Assembly (NCBI GenBank): GCA_020027345.1
Contig: JAHRAH010000151.1
Location: forward strand, 1 to 46,026
DNA: 46,026 nucleotides
Direction: 5' to 3'
Source: Gammaproteobacteria bacterium
GTDB taxonomy: Bacteria > Pseudomonadota > Gammaproteobacteria > Tethybacterales > Persebacteraceae
Part shown: positions 2,818-45,264 of the stretch, one piece after another
Position numbering within the stretch: position 1 is the first letter of the stretch
Layout: each line of letters opens with the position of its first letter
Program-made: the position numbers and the translations under genes
Notes under the pieces: model-generated
What the model was told of the DNA's origin: nothing
Seen by the model: only the letters and a program-made list of their open reading frames with translations
Databases searched by the model: none

Positions 2818-4221
2818 TTATTCCCCTTTTTCGTTTTCGTTTTCGTTTTCCACAGCGGAAAGCGCCGCCCGCAGTTCCCGCAAATTAACCCCCAAAAAAG
2901 CCGCCGCTTTCGTTTCCGAACCGCATTTCGCAATCGCCGCACGCGCAAAGGCCGCCCCCGTCTCCCGCATCAACTCCGGCAAAGTCCGCGCGCAAGAATC
3001 CCCCGCAAGCCGCGCCCGCGCAAACTCTCCGAACGCCGCCGATTCCAAACCCGCAACCGGCGCCTCCTCGCACATCTCCCCCTGCAACTGTTGCGCGCCA
3101 ACTTCGCACCCCGGATATTTAACCTGCAACCGCGCGACTATATTCCGCAGTTCGCGAACATTCCCGGCAAAAGAATAACGCCGCCACAAACCCTTCGCCG
3201 CCCGCGAAAGCGAAAACGGCGCCGTCTTCCGGTCCGCCGATATCCGACCGGCAAAATGCAATAGCAATAAAAAACGATCGTCCCCCATCTCCCGCACCGG
3301 CGGAACCGCGACCGTAAAAACGCTAATCCGATGATATAAATCCTCCCGCATTTTTCCCCGCAACGGTTTGTTGGATGCGGCGACAATCCGCGCCGGAGAT
3401 TGCCGCGCCGAAGTTTCGCCAACGCGCCGGTATTCCCCCGTTTCCAAAACGCGCAATAAATTCGCCTGCGCGCTTTTCGGCAAATCCCCTATCTCGTCCA
3501 AAAACAAAGTGCCGTCCGCCACATCCCCCAGCATACCCTTGTTTTCCGCCGCACCGGTAAACGCATTCTTCGCATTGCCAAACAATGTCGGCTCCATCAA
3601 ATCCTGCGGAATGGACGCGCAATTCAAAGCCCAAAACGGCTTCCCCGGCCGCGAACCCGAATGCAATGCCCGCGCAACCAGTTCCTTCCCCGAACCCGTC
3701 TCCCCCGTTATCAAAACCGGATACGGAGTTTCCGCAATCAATTTAATCTGCTCGCGCAATCGTTCTATCGCCGGCGAATCCCCCACCAACCCCATATCCC
3801 GCCGCGCCGCCAAAAGCGCAGTCCGCGAAGTCAACAATGTCTCCCGCAACTGCGACGGTTGACACGGTTTCTCCACATAATCATGCGCCCCCAAAAGCCG
3901 CGCCTGGTCCGCGTGCCGCCGAGCGTTCTGCCCGGAGACGACAACTATCGCGCATTCCGGCGCGATGGATTGTATGCTCCGAATAACAGCAAAGCCCCCG
4001 TCCGGACGATGCGGCGCCGGCGGCAATCCCAAATCCACCAAAGCATACGCCGGCGGCGGGCGCATCTGCGCCAGCGCGCTTTTAACTTCCGCAAGATTCT
4101 GCGCGCCCACCACCGCAAACTCCCCGTCAAAAAAATCGCAAAGCAAATTGCGAATGATAGGGTCGTCGTCAACTATCAGCAGCGGCGCCTTGCAGCCCGA
4201 ATCCGAAACCGCGTCAACCAT
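2818..4221 (-). CDS. Sigma-54-dependent response regulator, PrsR-like
   Basis: The 467-residue protein has a receiver domain (acidic pocket at 18-20, phospho-acceptor Asp63 in VDLGLPP, Lys118), a central AAA+ sigma-54 activator domain (Walker A GETGSGKE 173-180, Walker B TLFLDEIGD 238-246) and a C-terminal Fis-type helix-turn-helix at about 430-455. The receiver segment DLGLPP followed by an extended loop resembles PrsR, the regulator found in PEP-CTERM/exosortase loci. The sigma-54 contact loop reads NAFTGA (219-224) instead of GAFTGA, an unusual change of its first residue. Its start overlaps the Rieske gene by 8 nt and it is followed 3 nt later by the ExeA-like ATPase, so the two are probably co-expressed. 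No partner sensor kinase is in the window. Confidence 0.85.
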   Translation of the reverse strand: MVDAVSDSGCKAPLLIVDDDPIIRNLLCDFFDGEFAVVGAQNLAEVKSALAQMRPPPAYALVDLGLPPAPHRPDGGFAVIRSIQSIAPECAIVVVSGQNARRHADQARLLGAHDYVEKPCQPSQLRETLLTSRTALLAARRDMGLVGDSPAIERLREQIKLIAETPYPVLITGETGSGKELVARALHSGSRPGKPFWALNCASIPQDLMEPTLFGNAKNAFTGAAENKGMLGDVADGTLFLDEIGDLPKSAQANLLRVLETGEYRRVGETSARQSPARIVAASNKPLRGKMREDLYHRISVFTVAVPPVREMGDDRFLLLLHFAGRISADRKTAPFSLSRAAKGLWRRYSFAGNVRELRNIVARLQVKYPGCEVGAQQLQGEMCEEAPVAGLESAAFGEFARARLAGDSCARTLPELMRETGAAFARAAIAKCGSETKAAAFLGVNLRELRAALSAVENENENEKGE

Positions 4222-4534
4222 CGGAAACCATATACAAAGTCCCCCCCTCTTCCCGCACCGGAAAAACCCGCAGCGACTCCTCGGCGTCCTCCAAAGGCGC
4301 GCCGTCCGCCAGCCGCCAGCTCCAAAAATGCAAACAGCAAGTCAGCGTCGGCTCCCCGTTTTCGTCAACACCCGCTTCCCCGTCCGCAAGCGGCGCGCCC
4401 TGATGCGGGCAAACCCCCTCCGCCGCAAAAAAACGACCGTCGCTGCGCACAACAACAACCGCCTCCCCCCCCGGGCCCTCGCATTCCAGCGGCGCGTCCT
4501 CGCCCAGCTCCGATACTTTGCAAAGCGGATGCAT
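4214..4534 (-). CDS. Rieske [2Fe-2S] ferredoxin-like protein
   Basis: A 106-residue single-domain Rieske protein. The cluster ligands are Cys42/His44 in CPHQGAPL and Cys66/His69 in CCLHF, matching the CxH...CxxH pattern. There is no signal peptide or membrane helix, so it is a soluble cytoplasmic electron carrier or oxygenase-type ferredoxin subunit. I chose ATG 4534 (protein begins MHPLCKVSEL, as in relatives), preceded by AAGGGA. A TTG at 4576 overlaps the tolC stop as TTGA and would add 14 residues. The 3' end overlaps the next gene by 8 nt. No oxygenase is nearby, so its partner is unknown. Confidence 0.8.
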   Translation of the reverse strand: MHPLCKVSELGEDAPLECEGPGGEAVVVVRSDGRFFAAEGVCPHQGAPLADGEAGVDENGEPTLTCCLHFWSWRLADGAPLEDAEESLRVFPVREEGGTLYMVSDG

Positions 4535-4572
4535 CTCCAATTCCCTTTTCCAAAAACAAAAAACCGCAACCG

Positions 4573-6132
4573 TCAACCGTCCCCGCCCGGCGCAAAAAAC
4601 GATTCCACGCGAACGACAAAACCGTCGTCAACGCCCCCCGCAAGTTCCCGCAGCAGCGTCAGGTTTTCCAGGTAATTATATTGCGCCCGGCGCAATTGCA
4701 GACGCGAATCAAACAATTCCTCCTCCGCCGACAAAACATCCGCCGTCGTCCGCGTCCCCTGACGGTGTCCGAAATCCACCGCCCCCAGCGCCTCCGCCGA
4801 AGCCGCAACCGCCGCCGACAGCGCCCGCATCCGCGCCCGCGCCGATTCCATCGCCCCGTGCCGTTGCCGCGCCTGCTGCCCGACTTCCCGCCGCGCCGCC
4901 AGCAAACGCGCATCCTGCAGCCGCGCGTTCGCCATCAGCCGCCGCTTTTCCGCGCCGATGCGTCCCCCCGTGTAAAGCGGCTGCCGCAACGAAAACTGCA
5001 GCCGCTCGTCAAACCGCCGCAAACGGTTGTCGCTCGCCGCGCCCAGCGAAACATCCAACTCCGGATACGCCGACTTCTCCGCCGCCGCCAGCGAAAACCG
5101 CGCCGCCTCGCTCGCCAGCGCCGCCGCCTTCAAGCGCGGACTGTTCGCCGCAATCCGCTCCCGCCATTCCGCAAGCGGCTGCGGCTTCGCAAACTCGGCG
5201 TCCCCCGCAATCTTCGCCAACTGCGGCACCGCCCCCGTCAACCGTTCCAATTCCGCCCGCGCGTCCGCAAGTTCGTTCCGCGCCTGCGCCCGCTGCGCCT
5301 CCACATCAAAAACCCGCGCCCGCGCCCGCAAAGCGTCCGCCCGCAAAGCGCTCCCGGCGGCGAGCAACTTCTCCGCCAACTTCAACCGTTCCCCCAAAGT
5401 TTTCTTCCGCGCCGAAAGCAAAAGCAAAGTGTCCGACGCCAGCTGCGCCCGCAGCCACCCCCGCACCACCCGCGCCCGCAGCGACTGCAACTGTCCCCGA
5501 AACTCCGCAGCAGCAGCAGCAGCCGTCTTCTCCGCCGCCCGCAAACTCTCCCGCCGCGGCAAACTGAATGTCTGCACCAACTCCGCCCCCGCCCGCTTTG
5601 CATCGGGAGTCCCCCCCCCGGCAAAACTCCGGCTAGCCGAAGCGCTCGCCTGCGGCAGCAACCGCGAGCGCGCAATCCCCACCCCCTCCCGCTCGCCTTC
5701 CAAAACCGCCCGAGCCCCCCGCAACCCCGCATCAAACCCCTCCGCCCCCAAAACCAACTCCGCCAACCCCTTCCCATTGGACAAGGAGGACTCCCCAACA
5801 ACCCCCCCCCCATCTCCGATGGGGGGGGCTGGGGGGGGGAAATCCGCAGAGAAAGAGGAAGAAGAACCCCCCGCCGCTCGCAGGGAATCTATACCCCCCG
5901 CCGCTTGCGGGGGGGGTTCGGAGTTTGCCGTCCGCATCGGAGATGAGGACGGCAAACTCCGGGGGGGTGGAAAACCATCAAAACCCCCGGTCTCGTTACA
6001 CCTCTCCAGAGGTGTAACGCACCCAAAATCAGCGGCGTCCCCGCCGCTCAAATCCCCCCCCCCAGCCGAGGAAACAAGCAAAACAGCAAAAAAAACCGAG
6101 AAGACCCCCCCCCGGCCACACCCCCCCCTCAA
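4573..6132 (-). CDS. tolC: TolC family outer-membrane efflux protein with repeat-derived N-terminal insert
   Basis: The C-terminal 420 residues are a typical TolC fold: long Ala/Arg/Glu-rich helices, the motif LxxARxxxExxR, and the strand segment LRQPLYTGGRIG. Such proteins form trimeric channels for type I secretion or RND efflux. The start is probably the TTG at 6132, which overlaps the methyltransferase stop as TTGA, the same 4-nt coupling seen at many junctions here. It gives a signal peptide (VFSVFFAVLLVSSAG). Between that and the first conserved TolC residues (from about LAELVLGAEGFDAGLRGAR) lie roughly 95 residues encoded by palindromic repeat DNA (about 5790-6060). The first eight codons contain tracts of eight and nine G. 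Adjacency of methyltransferase and tolC is common in related bacteria. The exact start is uncertain. Confidence 0.8.
   Translation of the reverse strand: MRGGCGRGGVFSVFFAVLLVSSAGGGDLSGGDAADFGCVTPLERCNETGGFDGFPPPRSLPSSSPMRTANSEPPPQAAGGIDSLRAAGGSSSSFSADFPPPAPPIGDGGGVVGESSLSNGKGLAELVLGAEGFDAGLRGARAVLEGEREGVGIARSRLLPQASASASRSFAGGGTPDAKRAGAELVQTFSLPRRESLRAAEKTAAAAAAEFRGQLQSLRARVVRGWLRAQLASDTLLLLSARKKTLGERLKLAEKLLAAGSALRADALRARARVFDVEAQRAQARNELADARAELERLTGAVPQLAKIAGDAEFAKPQPLAEWRERIAANSPRLKAAALASEAARFSLAAAEKSAYPELDVSLGAASDNRLRRFDERLQFSLRQPLYTGGRIGAEKRRLMANARLQDARLLAARREVGQQARQRHGAMESARARMRALSAAVAASAEALGAVDFGHRQGTRTTADVLSAEEELFDSRLQLRRAQYNYLENLTLLRELAGGVDDGFVVRVESFFAPGGDG
5802..6060. repeat. Cluster of palindromic repeats inside tolC (families A, B and C)
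   Basis: Three units in a row. Family A: C-tract, CATCTCCGATGG, G-tract at 5802-5839. Family B: TATACCCCCCGCCGCTTGCG at 5890-5909 followed by a hairpin whose arms start GGAGTTTGCCGTCC and end GGACGGCAAACTCC, up to 5960. Family C: CTCGTTACACCTC-TCCA-GAGGTGTAACGC (two arms around a 4-nt loop) at 5992-6020, plus the hairpin AGCGGCG-TCCC-CGCCGCT at 6031-6048. The whole stretch stays open in the tolC frame. Confidence 0.85.
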
Positions 6133-6791
6133 AACCGAAACCGCTCCGGCTGCGGCGCCCCCACAAGCGGCTCCACGCATGTCTCCAAAATATCCCGCAC
6201 GATGCGAACATCCCCTCCGCGCGTTTCTATCAACCGCAGCGTCATCGCCGGCGCGTCCCCCACTATCGCCAGAATCCGCCCGCCGTTGCGAACCTGATGC
6301 CACAGCGAAGGCGGAATCATCGGCGCCGACGCCGTCAAAACAATCGCGTCAAACGGCGCTTCTTCCGGCAACCCCCCGCAGCCGTCGGCGCAGCGCACCG
6401 AGACATTGCGCGCCCCCGCCTTTTCCAACCGCTCCCGCGCCGCCCCGGCGAGCGCGGGCGAAATCTCCACGCTCACAACATCCCCCGCCAGCAACCCCAG
6501 CAAAGCGGCGAAGTAACCGCTGCCCGTCCCGATATGCAAAATCTTTTCCTCCCGCGTCGGCGCAAGCGCTTGCAGCATTCGCGCTTCCAACTTCGGTTCC
6601 AGCATTCGCCCGCCGCCGTCGCCCAGCGGCAGGGCGGCGTCGGCGTAGGCAAGCGGGCGATGCGCCGCCAAGGCGACAAAATCCTCGCGCCGCAGTTCCC
6701 GGCAAGCGGCCAAAACGCGCTCGTCCAGCACATCCCATGTGCGGATTTGCTGCTCAATCATGTTGGCTTGCCGTTGTTGTTCGTGCGCCAT
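6129..6791 (-). CDS. Protein-L-isoaspartate O-methyltransferase family protein
   Basis: A 220-residue SAM-dependent methyltransferase starting MAHEQQRQANMIEQQIRTWD. The SAM-binding loop LHIGTGSGYFAALL and the following acidic strand end (VVSVEIS) are present. It matches the PCMT-like proteins found just upstream of tolC in many Beta/Gammaproteobacteria. The classical enzyme methylates isoaspartyl residues to start repair of aged proteins; whether this subfamily does so is less certain. I placed the start at ATG 6791, with AGGA nearby, because the longer open frame to 6920 reads through tRNA-Leu. The gene lies only 22 nt beyond the tRNA 3' end, so it may be transcribed from the tRNA promoter. 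tolC follows with a 4-nt overlap. Confidence 0.85.
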   Translation of the reverse strand: MAHEQQRQANMIEQQIRTWDVLDERVLAACRELRREDFVALAAHRPLAYADAALPLGDGGGRMLEPKLEARMLQALAPTREEKILHIGTGSGYFAALLGLLAGDVVSVEISPALAGAARERLEKAGARNVSVRCADGCGGLPEEAPFDAIVLTASAPMIPPSLWHQVRNGGRILAIVGDAPAMTLRLIETRGGDVRIVRDILETCVEPLVGAPQPERFRF

Positions 6792-6813
6792 CGTCCTGCG
6801 CGGCTGCCGCCGG

Positions 6814-6899
6814 TGCCGAGAAGAGGACTCGAACCTCCACAGGGTTTGCACCCCACCAGGGCCTGAACCTGGCGCGTCTGCCAATTCCGCCACCTCGGC
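6814..6899 (-). tRNA. tRNA-Leu (anticodon CAG)
   Basis: An 86-nt class II tRNA. The acceptor arms GCCGAGG and TCTCGGC pair fully (one G-T). The anticodon stem CCAGG/CCTGG encloses TTCAGGC, giving anticodon CAG. A variable arm (GGGTGCAAACCC) and the T-loop TTCGAGT are present. The discriminator is A and the next bases are CCG, so CCA is not fully encoded. Confidence 0.95.
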
Positions 6900-6920
6900 C
6901 GGTCCGCTTGCCGCCCGCAT

Positions 6921-6990: not shown

Positions 6991-7028
6991 ACCCCCCCCC
7001 CATCTCCGATGGGGGGGGCTGGGGGGGG
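6991..7028. repeat. Family A palindrome at the hisI start
   Basis: Nine C, CATCTCCGAT, eight G, CT, eight G. The ATG inside the core (7009) is one base out of frame with the conserved beginning of hisI. Confidence 0.8.
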
Positions 7029-7121
7029 AAACCCTTCAAGGGGGGGAACCCCTTCAAAAACATCCACTTCAACAAAGAAGGACTAATCCCCGTCATCACC
7101 CAATGCGCCAAAAGCGGAAGG

Positions 7122-7387: not shown

Positions 7388-7552
7388 CATTCCCGCATTC
7401 TCCCAAAAAGCGGAAATCCAGCAAATTAAAAACCCCCACCCGCGTCATCCCCGCACTCCCCCCTCCGCGTCATTCCCGCTTTTCCCCAGAGGCGGGAATC
7501 CAGCAAATTAAAAACCCCCAGGCCTCGTTACACCCCTCCGGAGATGTAACGC
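7388..7552. repeat. Short dispersed repeats (family D fragments and one family C unit)
   Basis: GTCATTCCCGC...GCGGGAATCCAGC units occur at 7388 and 7468, each followed by AAATTAAAAACCCCC, so they are direct repeats. A family C hairpin (CTCGTTACACCCC ... GATGTAACGC) follows at 7524-7552. They fill the gap between hisI and the carnitine operon; no gene is seen. Confidence 0.75.
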
Positions 7553-7555
7553 CCC

Positions 7556-7583
7556 AAAAAAAAAGCGGGCGTCCCCGCCCGCT
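7556..7583 (-). terminator. Rho-independent terminator of the carnitine operon
   Basis: On the minus strand AGCGGGCG-GGGA-CGCCCGCT forms an 8-bp stem with a 4-nt loop, followed directly by a run of nine T (counting the last stem base). It lies 50 nt after the stop of the caiD-like gene. The hairpin is also the second half of the family C repeat. Confidence 0.8.
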
Positions 7584-7632
7584 CAAATTAATGCGTCATT
7601 CCCGCGCTTTTGTTAAAAAGCGAAAATGACGG

Positions 7633-19094: not shown

Positions 19095-19106
19095 TAACCA
19101 CCCCCT

Positions 19107-19172
19107 GTCATTCCCGCGAAAGCGGGAATCCAGCCCGGGCGGACTCTGGATTCCCGCTTTCGGGGGAATGAC
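19107..19172. repeat. Family D inverted repeat
   Basis: GTCATTCCCGCGAAAGCGGG...CCAG and, inverted, CTGGATTCCCGCTTTCGGGGG...GAC. Each arm is itself a small palindrome, giving a cruciform-like unit of 66 bp. It could act as a terminator after glf. Confidence 0.85.
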
Positions 19173-38538: not shown

Positions 38539-39335
38539 GGTTTTTCGGATTTGCAGGTTTGCAGTTCGGCGAGAAACCGGGGGAACATCTTCGCCCCGGC
38601 GGCGGCAAAAGGCGGCGGCGCTTCGGCGAATGCGAATTCGGGTTTGCCGTGTATGTCGGCTATCAGCCCGCCGGCCTCGCGCAGGAGCAGCCAGCCGGCG
38701 GCGACATCCCAAAAGCGGACGGGGCCGGAAATGAGAGCGTCGGCTTTGCCGGCGGCGACATACGCCATATCCAAAGCGGTGGAACCGGTGCGGCGGACTC
38801 CGCGCAACTGCGGGGCAATGCGGGTGACAAGGGGCCAAAGATTGTAGCCGCCGGAATCCATCTGCCCGCCGGCGATGACGAGGGATTCGGGAAAGGACGC
38901 GCGCGCGGAAACGCGTATTCTGCGCTCGTCGCAAAAGGCGCCCTGCCCTTCTTCGGCGGAATAAAATGCGTCGGCGAAAACATCGCAAATGACGGCAACG
39001 ACGGGCGCGCCGCCGCGGCAAAAAGCAATGGAGACCGCGCAACTGCCGTAGCCGTGGACGAAGTTTGTGGTGCCGTCCAGGGGATCTACGACCCAGCATG
39101 CGTCGGCGTCGCCGCGCATTCCGCTTTCCTCGCCGAGAAAGCCGTGTTCGGGAAAGGTTTCGGCGAGAGTTTCGCGAATGATTTCCTCGGCTTCGGGGTC
39201 GGTCGCGGTAACAAGCTCGCCGCCGCTCTTGTGCCGGGCGCCGGCGCGGGAGTTTTGCGACCGCCGTCGTATCAGCCCCGCGGCCCTGCGCGCCGCGCCA
39301 AGAGCGGCCGTAAGCATCGGCGATGTAGGCGGCAT
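38535..39335 (-). CDS. suhB: Inositol monophosphatase family protein, SuhB-like
   Basis: A 266-residue magnesium-dependent phosphatase. Metal ligands are Glu70 in GEESG, Asp84 and Asp87 in [12 protein letters not shown], and the later Asp in [16 protein letters not shown]. Length and the N-terminal [17 protein letters not shown] match SuhB, which also acts in rRNA antitermination. HisN or CysQ-type activity cannot be excluded. I chose ATG 39335, because the earlier ATG at 39344 overlaps a perfect TATAAT; with this start the mRNA is probably leaderless. mutS follows with a 4-nt overlap. A decayed copy of its 5' part lies at 41490-41578. Confidence 0.85.
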
Positions 39336-41211: not shown

Positions 41212-41289
41212 GCGCTCCCACGCCGGAGCGCGGGAACGAGGTTGGGGTATCCCGTCCGGAGCGCGGGAACGAGGTTGGGGTATCCCGTC
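41212..41289. repeat. Family C hairpin with 33-bp tandem duplication
   Basis: GCGCTCCCACGC-CGGA-GCGCGGGAACGAG (41212-41240) is a family C unit. A 33-bp segment starting CGGAGCGCGGGAACGAGG is then repeated exactly (41224-41256 and 41257-41289). Confidence 0.85.
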
Positions 41290-41404
41290 ATTCCGGCGAA
41301 AGCCGGAATCCATAGGGACATTGGTTTTTCGCTAAGTTCCGGAGCGGGCGGGGATTGTGCTTTTTCGCCAGGGTTGTATGGATTCCGGCTTTCGCCGGAA
41401 TGAC
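41287..41404. repeat. Family D inverted repeat, CCGG variant
   Basis: GTCATTCCGGCGAAAGCCGG at one end and, inverted, GGATTCCGGCTTTCGCCGG...TGAC at the other. Compared with other copies the stem carries CCGGC/GCCGG instead of CCCGC/GCGGG, so both arms changed together. Positions 41035-41611 contain only such repeats and the suhB fragment. Confidence 0.85.
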
Positions 41405-41489: not shown

Positions 41490-41578
41490 TTCGCGGATGA
41501 TCTCCTCGGCTTCGGGGTCGGTCGCGGTAACGAGTTCGCCGCCGCTTTTGTGGCGGGCTCCGGCGGGAGAGTTTTGCG
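41490..41578 (-). pseudogene. Degenerate fragment of suhB
   Basis: About 89 nt matching positions 39171-39259 of suhB with roughly nine differences. In the matching frame the minus strand reads [20 protein letters not shown], identical to residues 31-50 of SuhB. The flanks do not continue the gene. It is a relic of a duplication or recombination, now sitting in front of the zinc-ribbon gene. Confidence 0.85.
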
Positions 41579-41596
41579 CGCGGCGGCGTTATGGCG

Positions 41597-43578: not shown

Positions 43579-43782
43579 TATACCCCCCGCCGCTTGCGGG
43601 GGGGGGTCGGAGTTTTCCTTTTCCATCGGAGATGGGAAAGGAAAACTCCGGGGGGGTGGTCGTCCGTTACTGTTAGGGATAAACGATGTTTTGCGGACGC
43701 TCTCCACCCCCCCGGAGAATTCCCCGCCGACTTCGTCGTCGGGGAATGCTCCGACCCCCCCCCGCAAGCGGCGGGGGGTATA
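43579..43782. mobile_element. 204-bp composite palindromic element with terminal inverted repeats (MITE-like)
   Basis: It begins TATACCCCCCGCCGCTTGCG and ends with the exact inverse. Each terminal repeat is followed inward by its own long hairpin: arms GGAGTTTTCCTTT/AAAGGAAAACTCC on the left and GGAG-ATTCCCCG/CGGGGAAT-CTCC on the right. The unique centre is about 45 bp. No coding capacity, so any movement would need a transposase elsewhere. A half element with a third hairpin sequence is in tolC at 5890. Confidence 0.7.
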
Positions 43783-43798
43783 GTTAACGCGCGCGCGT

Positions 43799-45124: not shown

Positions 45125-45146
45125 ATATCACAAAATCAAACCAACC

Positions 45147-45264
45147 GTCATTCCCGCGAAAGCGGGAATCCATATGGAGCCGGGAGAAAAGAGGAATCTT
45201 CCCTCGTCCGCAAATAACGGCGAAGAGGAAAAATCGTATGGATTCCCGCTTTCGCGGGAATGAC
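45147..45264. repeat. Family D inverted repeat, full-length copy
   Basis: Outer arms GTCATTCCCGCGAAAGCGGG (start) and the exact inverse at the end, extending through CCATA/TATGG. The 118-bp element separates the imelysin promoter from the next gene and has no coding sense. Confidence 0.88.

Follow-up and report, generated by a model that had tools for sequence, protein, structure and literature searches.

Palindromic repeats of several families lie in frame within tolC and other conserved genes of a gammaproteobacterial genome

The stretch of DNA analysed here (the window, 46,026 nucleotides, from an uncultivated bacterium) contains a tolC gene in which a block of palindromic repeats lies between a signal-peptide-like N-terminus and the TolC domain. 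This raises the question of whether the repeats are translated as part of TolC, or form a spacer ahead of it. The gene is on the minus strand (4573-6132), where the open frame, domain match and structure matches define a product of 519 residues, from a TTG at 6132 to a stop at 4573-4575. No stop occurs in this frame from above 6303 down to 4573, and the stop-to-stop frame is 591 codons long.

The product matches the Pfam family OEP (E 3e-44), with the TolC domain beginning at about residue 119 of 519, and its sequence matches solved TolC structures. The predicted model has the TolC fold and matches Klebsiella TolC in Foldseek (E 2e-24). The score against TIGR01844 is 177.9 bits, which is under the curated cut-off of 225 bits. 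The two features by which membership was judged, an OEP domain and a TolC fold, are both present, and at E 1e-3 this is the single TolC homologue in the genome. The part corresponding to the mature channel (4576-5784, minus strand) is delimited by the domain match, structures, homologue alignment and predicted model. The upstream gene, also on the minus strand, is pcm, encoding protein-L-isoaspartate methyltransferase (6129-6920; PCMT, E 3.2e-36), and the downstream gene encodes a Rieske-type ferredoxin (4214-4576, minus strand, identified by a domain match). The order pcm-tolC is kept in two genomes of the same family, L002 and L003, and L002 also has the Rieske gene in the same order; neither has the insert.

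An insert of repeat families between signal peptide and TolC domain, uninterrupted by a stop, was described in the initial annotation as about 95 codons long. This is confirmed, the insert being 93 codons (279 nt, 5785-6063, minus strand) of palindromic repeats and short joints. It contains at least four elements, which in the 5′ to 3′ direction of tolC are D, B plus C, a partial B, and A, with the joints between them. Repeat D (5990-6053, plus-strand coordinates here and for the other elements) was found by repeat search and is a double hairpin, CGTTACACCTCT..AGAGGTGTAACG plus GCGGCGTCCCCGCCGC. It is read as GGDAADFGCVTPLERCNETGG, and its reading frame in an inverse autotransporter gene (L199) is the same as in tolC (GGDAAQICSVTPLERCNEAGL). 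Hairpin C (5919-5961, repeat search) has arms of 20 nt and the apex ATCGGAGAT, and B plus C together (5890-5970) form the left 81 bp of an element of about 209 bp with terminal inverted repeats. A partial second copy of B (5866-5885, repeat search) is followed by repeat A (5802-5839), which is a standard 38-nt unit, C10-ATCTCCGAT-G8-CT-G9, read as PPPAPPIGDGGG. The RNA of the insert is predicted to fold at -180.8 kcal/mol, compared to -135.0 kcal/mol for shuffled sequences (z -8.8). Some of the hairpins are terminator-like, with poor U-tracts. A search of the whole window against Rfam at the gathering score returned two tRNAs only, and no known structured RNA at the insert.

The frame is open, but this carries little weight as a sign of translation: the insert is free of stops in two of six frames, one on each strand, and comparable non-coding repeat windows lack stops in a given frame in 18% of cases, so that stop-freeness is weak evidence and cannot be taken as proof of translation. 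The chance of an open frame is high because A, B and C carry few stops in any frame; the mean number of stop-free frames out of six is 5.5 for A (202 copies), 6.0 for B, 5.8 for C and 3.4 for D.

In 21 homologues, including two from the same family, the leader directly joins the TolC domain and the insert is absent, and in L002 tolC starts 9 nt past the pcm stop. Since the leader of the relatives abuts the domain, the leader in the window (6064-6132, minus strand, MRGGCGRGGVFSVFFAVLLVSSA) would occupy the site where relatives begin tolC, with the repeats splitting it from the domain. In this frame, the start nearest to the end of pcm is TTG 6132; it overlaps with the stop of pcm (TTGA), and neither ATG nor GTG occurs in frame immediately ahead of the signal-peptide stretch. 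The proposal of a signal peptide upstream of the insert holds in that a leader-like stretch is present in frame; its hydrophobicity, however, is not specific to the frame. The stretch is T-rich DNA, with a mean Kyte-Doolittle value of 2.78 in the tolC frame and 1.87 and 2.62 in the other two, and a signal peptide called from hydrophobicity alone would be weakly founded. The leader cannot be aligned, and therefore its link to tolC depends on position and frame. The shortness of the leader, its unspecific hydrophobicity and the TTG start all count against the in-frame reading. The leader also holds a run of nine G or C of its own (6105-6113).

These points bear on the foremost alternative, which is that the repeats only separate pcm from tolC without being translated, that TolC starts downstream of them (for example at TTG 5784), and that the open frame upstream is due to chance in GC-rich DNA. 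The open-frame frequencies just given are compatible with this, as is the finding that the repeat clusters of this genome are mostly intergenic. TTG 5784 is preceded by a GGGGAG, and Di Nocera and colleagues caution that many N-terminal intragenic REPs reflect misannotated starts (PMC3733652). Against this, TolC needs a signal peptide to reach the outer membrane, and the domain is well conserved and in single copy; the sole leader-like stretch is upstream of the repeats, in frame, at the place where relatives start tolC. A spacer at tolC would also leave unexplained the copies inside LpxK, formate dehydrogenase, CinA and other proteins, described below. We therefore regard it as unlikely.

Stronger evidence comes from the rest of the genome, where the same repeats are found in frame within at least nine further conserved genes. 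In LpxK, a copy of A is in frame, the match (E 8.8e-84) spans the insert, and about 44 residues are absent from all relatives found. ApbE also has A in frame, and both ApbE and LpxK are about 42 residues longer than solved structures at the site of the insert. In the alpha subunit of formate dehydrogenase, the segment with A in frame has 58 residues compared to 17 in 7e5z, with long matches on both sides, and in CinA the repeat splits TGIAGP/KPVG. Further in-frame copies of A occur in hydantoinase B, where hydantoinase A and B domains join, in a two-domain sugar ABC ATPase and in a UvrD-type helicase. As in tolC, the repeats in two inverse autotransporters (L199 and L227) separate a hydrophobic leader from the domain, here a beta domain. 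Less certain are five in-frame cases in which the presence of the domain on both sides is unchecked (L056, L123, L127, L181 and L219), and end extensions of Dxr, Dus and an LptB-like ATPase. In-frame copies are thus present in conserved genes whose relatives lack them. One of the autotransporter genes, L199:608-11911, is open over 11.3 kb and has its inverse-autotransporter beta domain close to the beginning; the encoded surface protein would be very large.

The repeats, the open frame, their absence from relatives and the parallel in-frame copies in conserved genes are the observations behind the explanation that we prefer. This is that the repeats are probably protein-coding palindromes, of the kind known as RPE or intragenic REPs, and that they give TolC a disordered periplasmic N-terminus rich in Gly, Pro and Ser. 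Because the repeats are in frame in tolC and in at least nine other conserved genes, a process of the Rickettsia type appears to be active here. The initial annotation had put forward such an insertion, and it gains support both from the relatives, which lack the segment at the syntenic place, and from the occurrence of the same families in frame elsewhere. We propose that mobile palindromic repeats were inserted serially just after the signal-peptide codons of tolC, and were retained because the frame was kept. As A, B and C consist mostly of G/C runs and are nearly stop-free in all frames, an insertion of length 3n would simply be translated. The 519-residue precursor would then consist of a signal peptide, about 93 disordered residues rich in Gly, Pro and Ser, and an ordinary TolC channel. 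Once the signal peptide had been cleaved off, the mature N-terminus in the periplasm would bear this tail, which may do little harm there.

Structure prediction agrees with the suggestion of an unstructured mature N-terminus. In the TolC model, residues 1-117 are below pLDDT 50 save a few, while the channel is mostly above 90. The model of LpxK is similar, with most of residues 204-251 below 50 and the remainder confident, mostly above 90. Low confidence is expected where there are no related sequences, and the values are therefore consistent with disorder but do not prove it. On this basis the inserts in TolC and LpxK are predicted to be disordered excursions.

Whether the frame is kept more often than by chance was addressed by several scans. 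A strict scan for coding flanks was too insensitive, giving just three in-frame clusters, and the others came from relaxed and ORF-based scans. Because ORF-based scans are biased to open frames, a frame-blind scan was made. It gave 22 clusters with coding-like flanks on one strand, of which 16 were judged by inspection to lie within a single gene; here the two clusters of the helicase were counted once, an AroE-like case was excluded as uncertain, and L218, L221, L233, L190, L130, L173, L193 and L236 were excluded as being between genes or at gene ends. The frame is kept in 10 of the 16, compared to one third expected by chance (p=0.016). The six that are out of frame are a third site in hydantoinase B (L122:4811-4852), cytidylate kinase (Cmk, L184:7596-7711), Ham1 (L215:4937-4979), an RsmD-like gene (L196:3476-3569), a ThrB-like gene (L197:7108-7146) and an MFS gene. 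Cmk, Ham1 and the RsmD-like and ThrB-like genes match the same Pfam family on both sides of the repeat; the MFS case is weaker, with two different models.

Frame and run length go together. The standard A unit is 38 nt long, with G/C runs of 10, 8 and 9 or similar. It accounts for 11 of 13 in-frame intragenic copies and none of five out-of-frame copies (Fisher p=0.0025), with small numbers and classes that were assigned after the data had been seen; among intergenic or unassigned copies it accounts for 66 of 111. In the interrupted genes that are out of frame, run lengths are non-standard where measured. As six of 16 clusters are out of frame, some of them in genes that are usually needed (cytidylate kinase, Ham1), the genome carries copies that are either broken or misassembled. 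The off-length, out-of-frame copies could be explained either by cellular slippage or by runs miscounted during assembly. The assembly is a fragmented draft of 194 contigs, 86.5% complete, in which long G/C runs may be miscounted.

Under the protein-coding reading, repeats capable of moving or being copied would insert at numerous sites, the length of the G/C runs would determine whether the frame survives, and stop-free units of length 3n would persist within genes, best at linkers, in loops and behind signal peptides. A further step is more speculative. The repeats introduce G or C runs of 8-10 into the genes that they enter, and slippage in these runs might switch the host genes, among them tolC, cmk and lpxK, between an on and an off state. 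In this way a selfish repeat could spread phase variation over essential and surface functions. The frame is kept in copies of standard length and lost in those of other lengths, as such switching would produce, but miscounted runs in a draft would look alike, and we consider phase variation rather doubtful.

The out-of-frame copies in hydantoinase B, Cmk, Ham1 and the RsmD-like, ThrB-like and MFS genes could also mean, especially in a 194-contig draft, that tolC itself is decaying or its region mis-assembled, and that its intact frame is a coincidence. This is very improbable. The TolC domain is without a stop and has about 35% identity to the family relatives along its full length, tolC holds the standard 38-nt A unit like the other in-frame copies, and LpxK and formate dehydrogenase are well conserved outside their inserts. 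Least credible of all is that the palindromes are removed from the RNA or skipped by the ribosome as in Magnusiomyces mitochondria: untranslated palindromes bypassed by the ribosome are known in that yeast mitochondrion, as mentioned in PMC6649704, and some copies here are out of frame in cytidylate kinase and other genes that are usually needed, but frame would then be irrelevant, which does not fit the excess of frame-keeping clusters, and the difference in run length between the two classes points to slippage or miscounting.

Across the genome, 1.49 of 2.36 Mb were searched, giving 218 places for A, 150 for B, 70 for C and 100 for D. Together with related hairpins, A-D form 330 clusters, which occupy 2.2% of the 1.49 Mb searched. 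Allowing one mismatch, the A hairpin occurs 300 times in the whole genome, but is absent from four relatives of the family or order and from four other genomes. The apex pattern occurs 79+89 times in this genome and not at all in G001 or G002, and its reversed control has no occurrence. The repeats thus make up a palindromic family of many copies. In the window, another copy of A lies between tRNA-Leu and hisI (6992-7029, plus) and a copy of D downstream of hisI (7512-7588, plus). A full-length B/C element of about 209 bp is at 43579-43787 (plus); it is MITE-like, with inverted termini TATACCCCCCGCCGC, and has no match to plasmids. Between copies of B/C, the stems of the internal hairpins vary, and the apex ATCGGAGAT is constant.

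Several features of the families were noted in passing. The A apex occurs in two classes, TCC/GGA and TTT/AAA, the latter being favoured in intragenic copies (13 vs 6; elsewhere 57 vs 88; p=0.025). Six of eight inverted pairs of A (L130, L133, L170, L171, L173, L193, L195 and L236), intergenic ones included, have a total length divisible by three, which is too few for a conclusion. Runs of at least 8 G or C number 221 per 100 kb outside coding-like sequence and 11 inside, and are thus about 20 times denser outside. The genome is larger than those of two family relatives (2.36 Mb vs 1.5-1.6 Mb), and the measured repeats account for only about 2%.

Bacterial palindromic repeats of related kinds have defined hallmarks. 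RPEs are elements of Rickettsia of about 100-150 bp, in sequence families RPE-1 to -10. REPs have a GTAG or CGTC tag at one end of the hairpin, and the GTAG type is associated with a Y1 transposase gene. MITEs are 70-300 bp long and have terminal inverted repeats but no coding gene, together with a target-site duplication and a related autonomous transposon. Read by eye, neither the aligned copies of A and D nor the B/C element has a GTAG or CGTC tag. The sole Y1_Tnp (REP-type) gene of the genome, at L178 (C83):918-1259, is flanked by palindromes of its own, AAGCCCTGTA... and AAGCCCTGTAAGGGCGGCCGA, which are unrelated to A-D. The association seen for GTAG REPs is therefore missing here, and the idea that this transposase drives A-D is unsupported. 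We describe the elements as protein-coding palindromic repeats, rather than as RPE or REP.

Palindromes in frame are known in Rickettsia (RPE; Ogata 2000, 2002, as cited in PMC10969869 and PMC3767692). Like the repeats described here, RPEs are many-copy palindromes in frame in unrelated conserved genes, and add tens of residues that look unstructured or are solvent-exposed. They differ in lineage, and the present elements are 38-nt G/C-run hairpins or composites of about 209 bp, most of them intergenic, a distinction made by description and not by sequence. The Wolbachia palindromic elements are likewise protein-coding repeats within one bacterial lineage (Ogata 2005, as cited in PMC3767692); the host lineage is different, and the likeness is again one of description rather than sequence. 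Intragenic REPs of the GTAG/CGTC type occur in Opitutus, Thauera and Thioalkalivibrio, among others (PMC3733652). They too are short palindromes that are mainly intergenic, with a minority in frame in genes; their hosts include recBCD-type helicases, and in some species clusters code for 43-82 residues. The 209-bp B/C element resembles MITE or Correia-type elements in its terminal inverted repeats, its lack of a gene and its size, which is within the MITE range, a likeness drawn from these features. In the mitochondria of Nematomorpha (PMC6649704), inverted repeats also lie within protein-coding sequence, but there both arms code for conserved residues, whereas here the palindromes are extra and missing in relatives.

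The phenomenon is of a kind already known from Rickettsia, Wolbachia and Opitutus, while the repeat family and the lineage appear to be new. Protein-coding palindromes were once called unique to Rickettsia; later they were reported from Wolbachia as well and, in the form of REPs, from some other bacteria. The present genome appears to be a further, independent instance: it brings new repeat families and some ten host genes that are well supported, several of them with the repeat in the middle of a conserved enzyme. It bears on what makes selfish repeats tolerable in proteins, the candidate features being stop-free G/C-run hairpins, lengths of 3n and disordered Pro/Gly peptides. That run length and frame are linked offers a testable idea of how such repeats break or switch genes.

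The window contains other repeats as well. A further family, GTCATTCCCGCGAAAGCGGGAATCCA, occurs in both orientations at 19100-19172, 39637, 41280-41404 and 45140-45264. A direct repeat of 100 bp, with copies 87% alike and 2.3 kb apart, is at 39171-39270 and 41490-41589, and an exact 33-bp tandem repeat is at 41223-41288.
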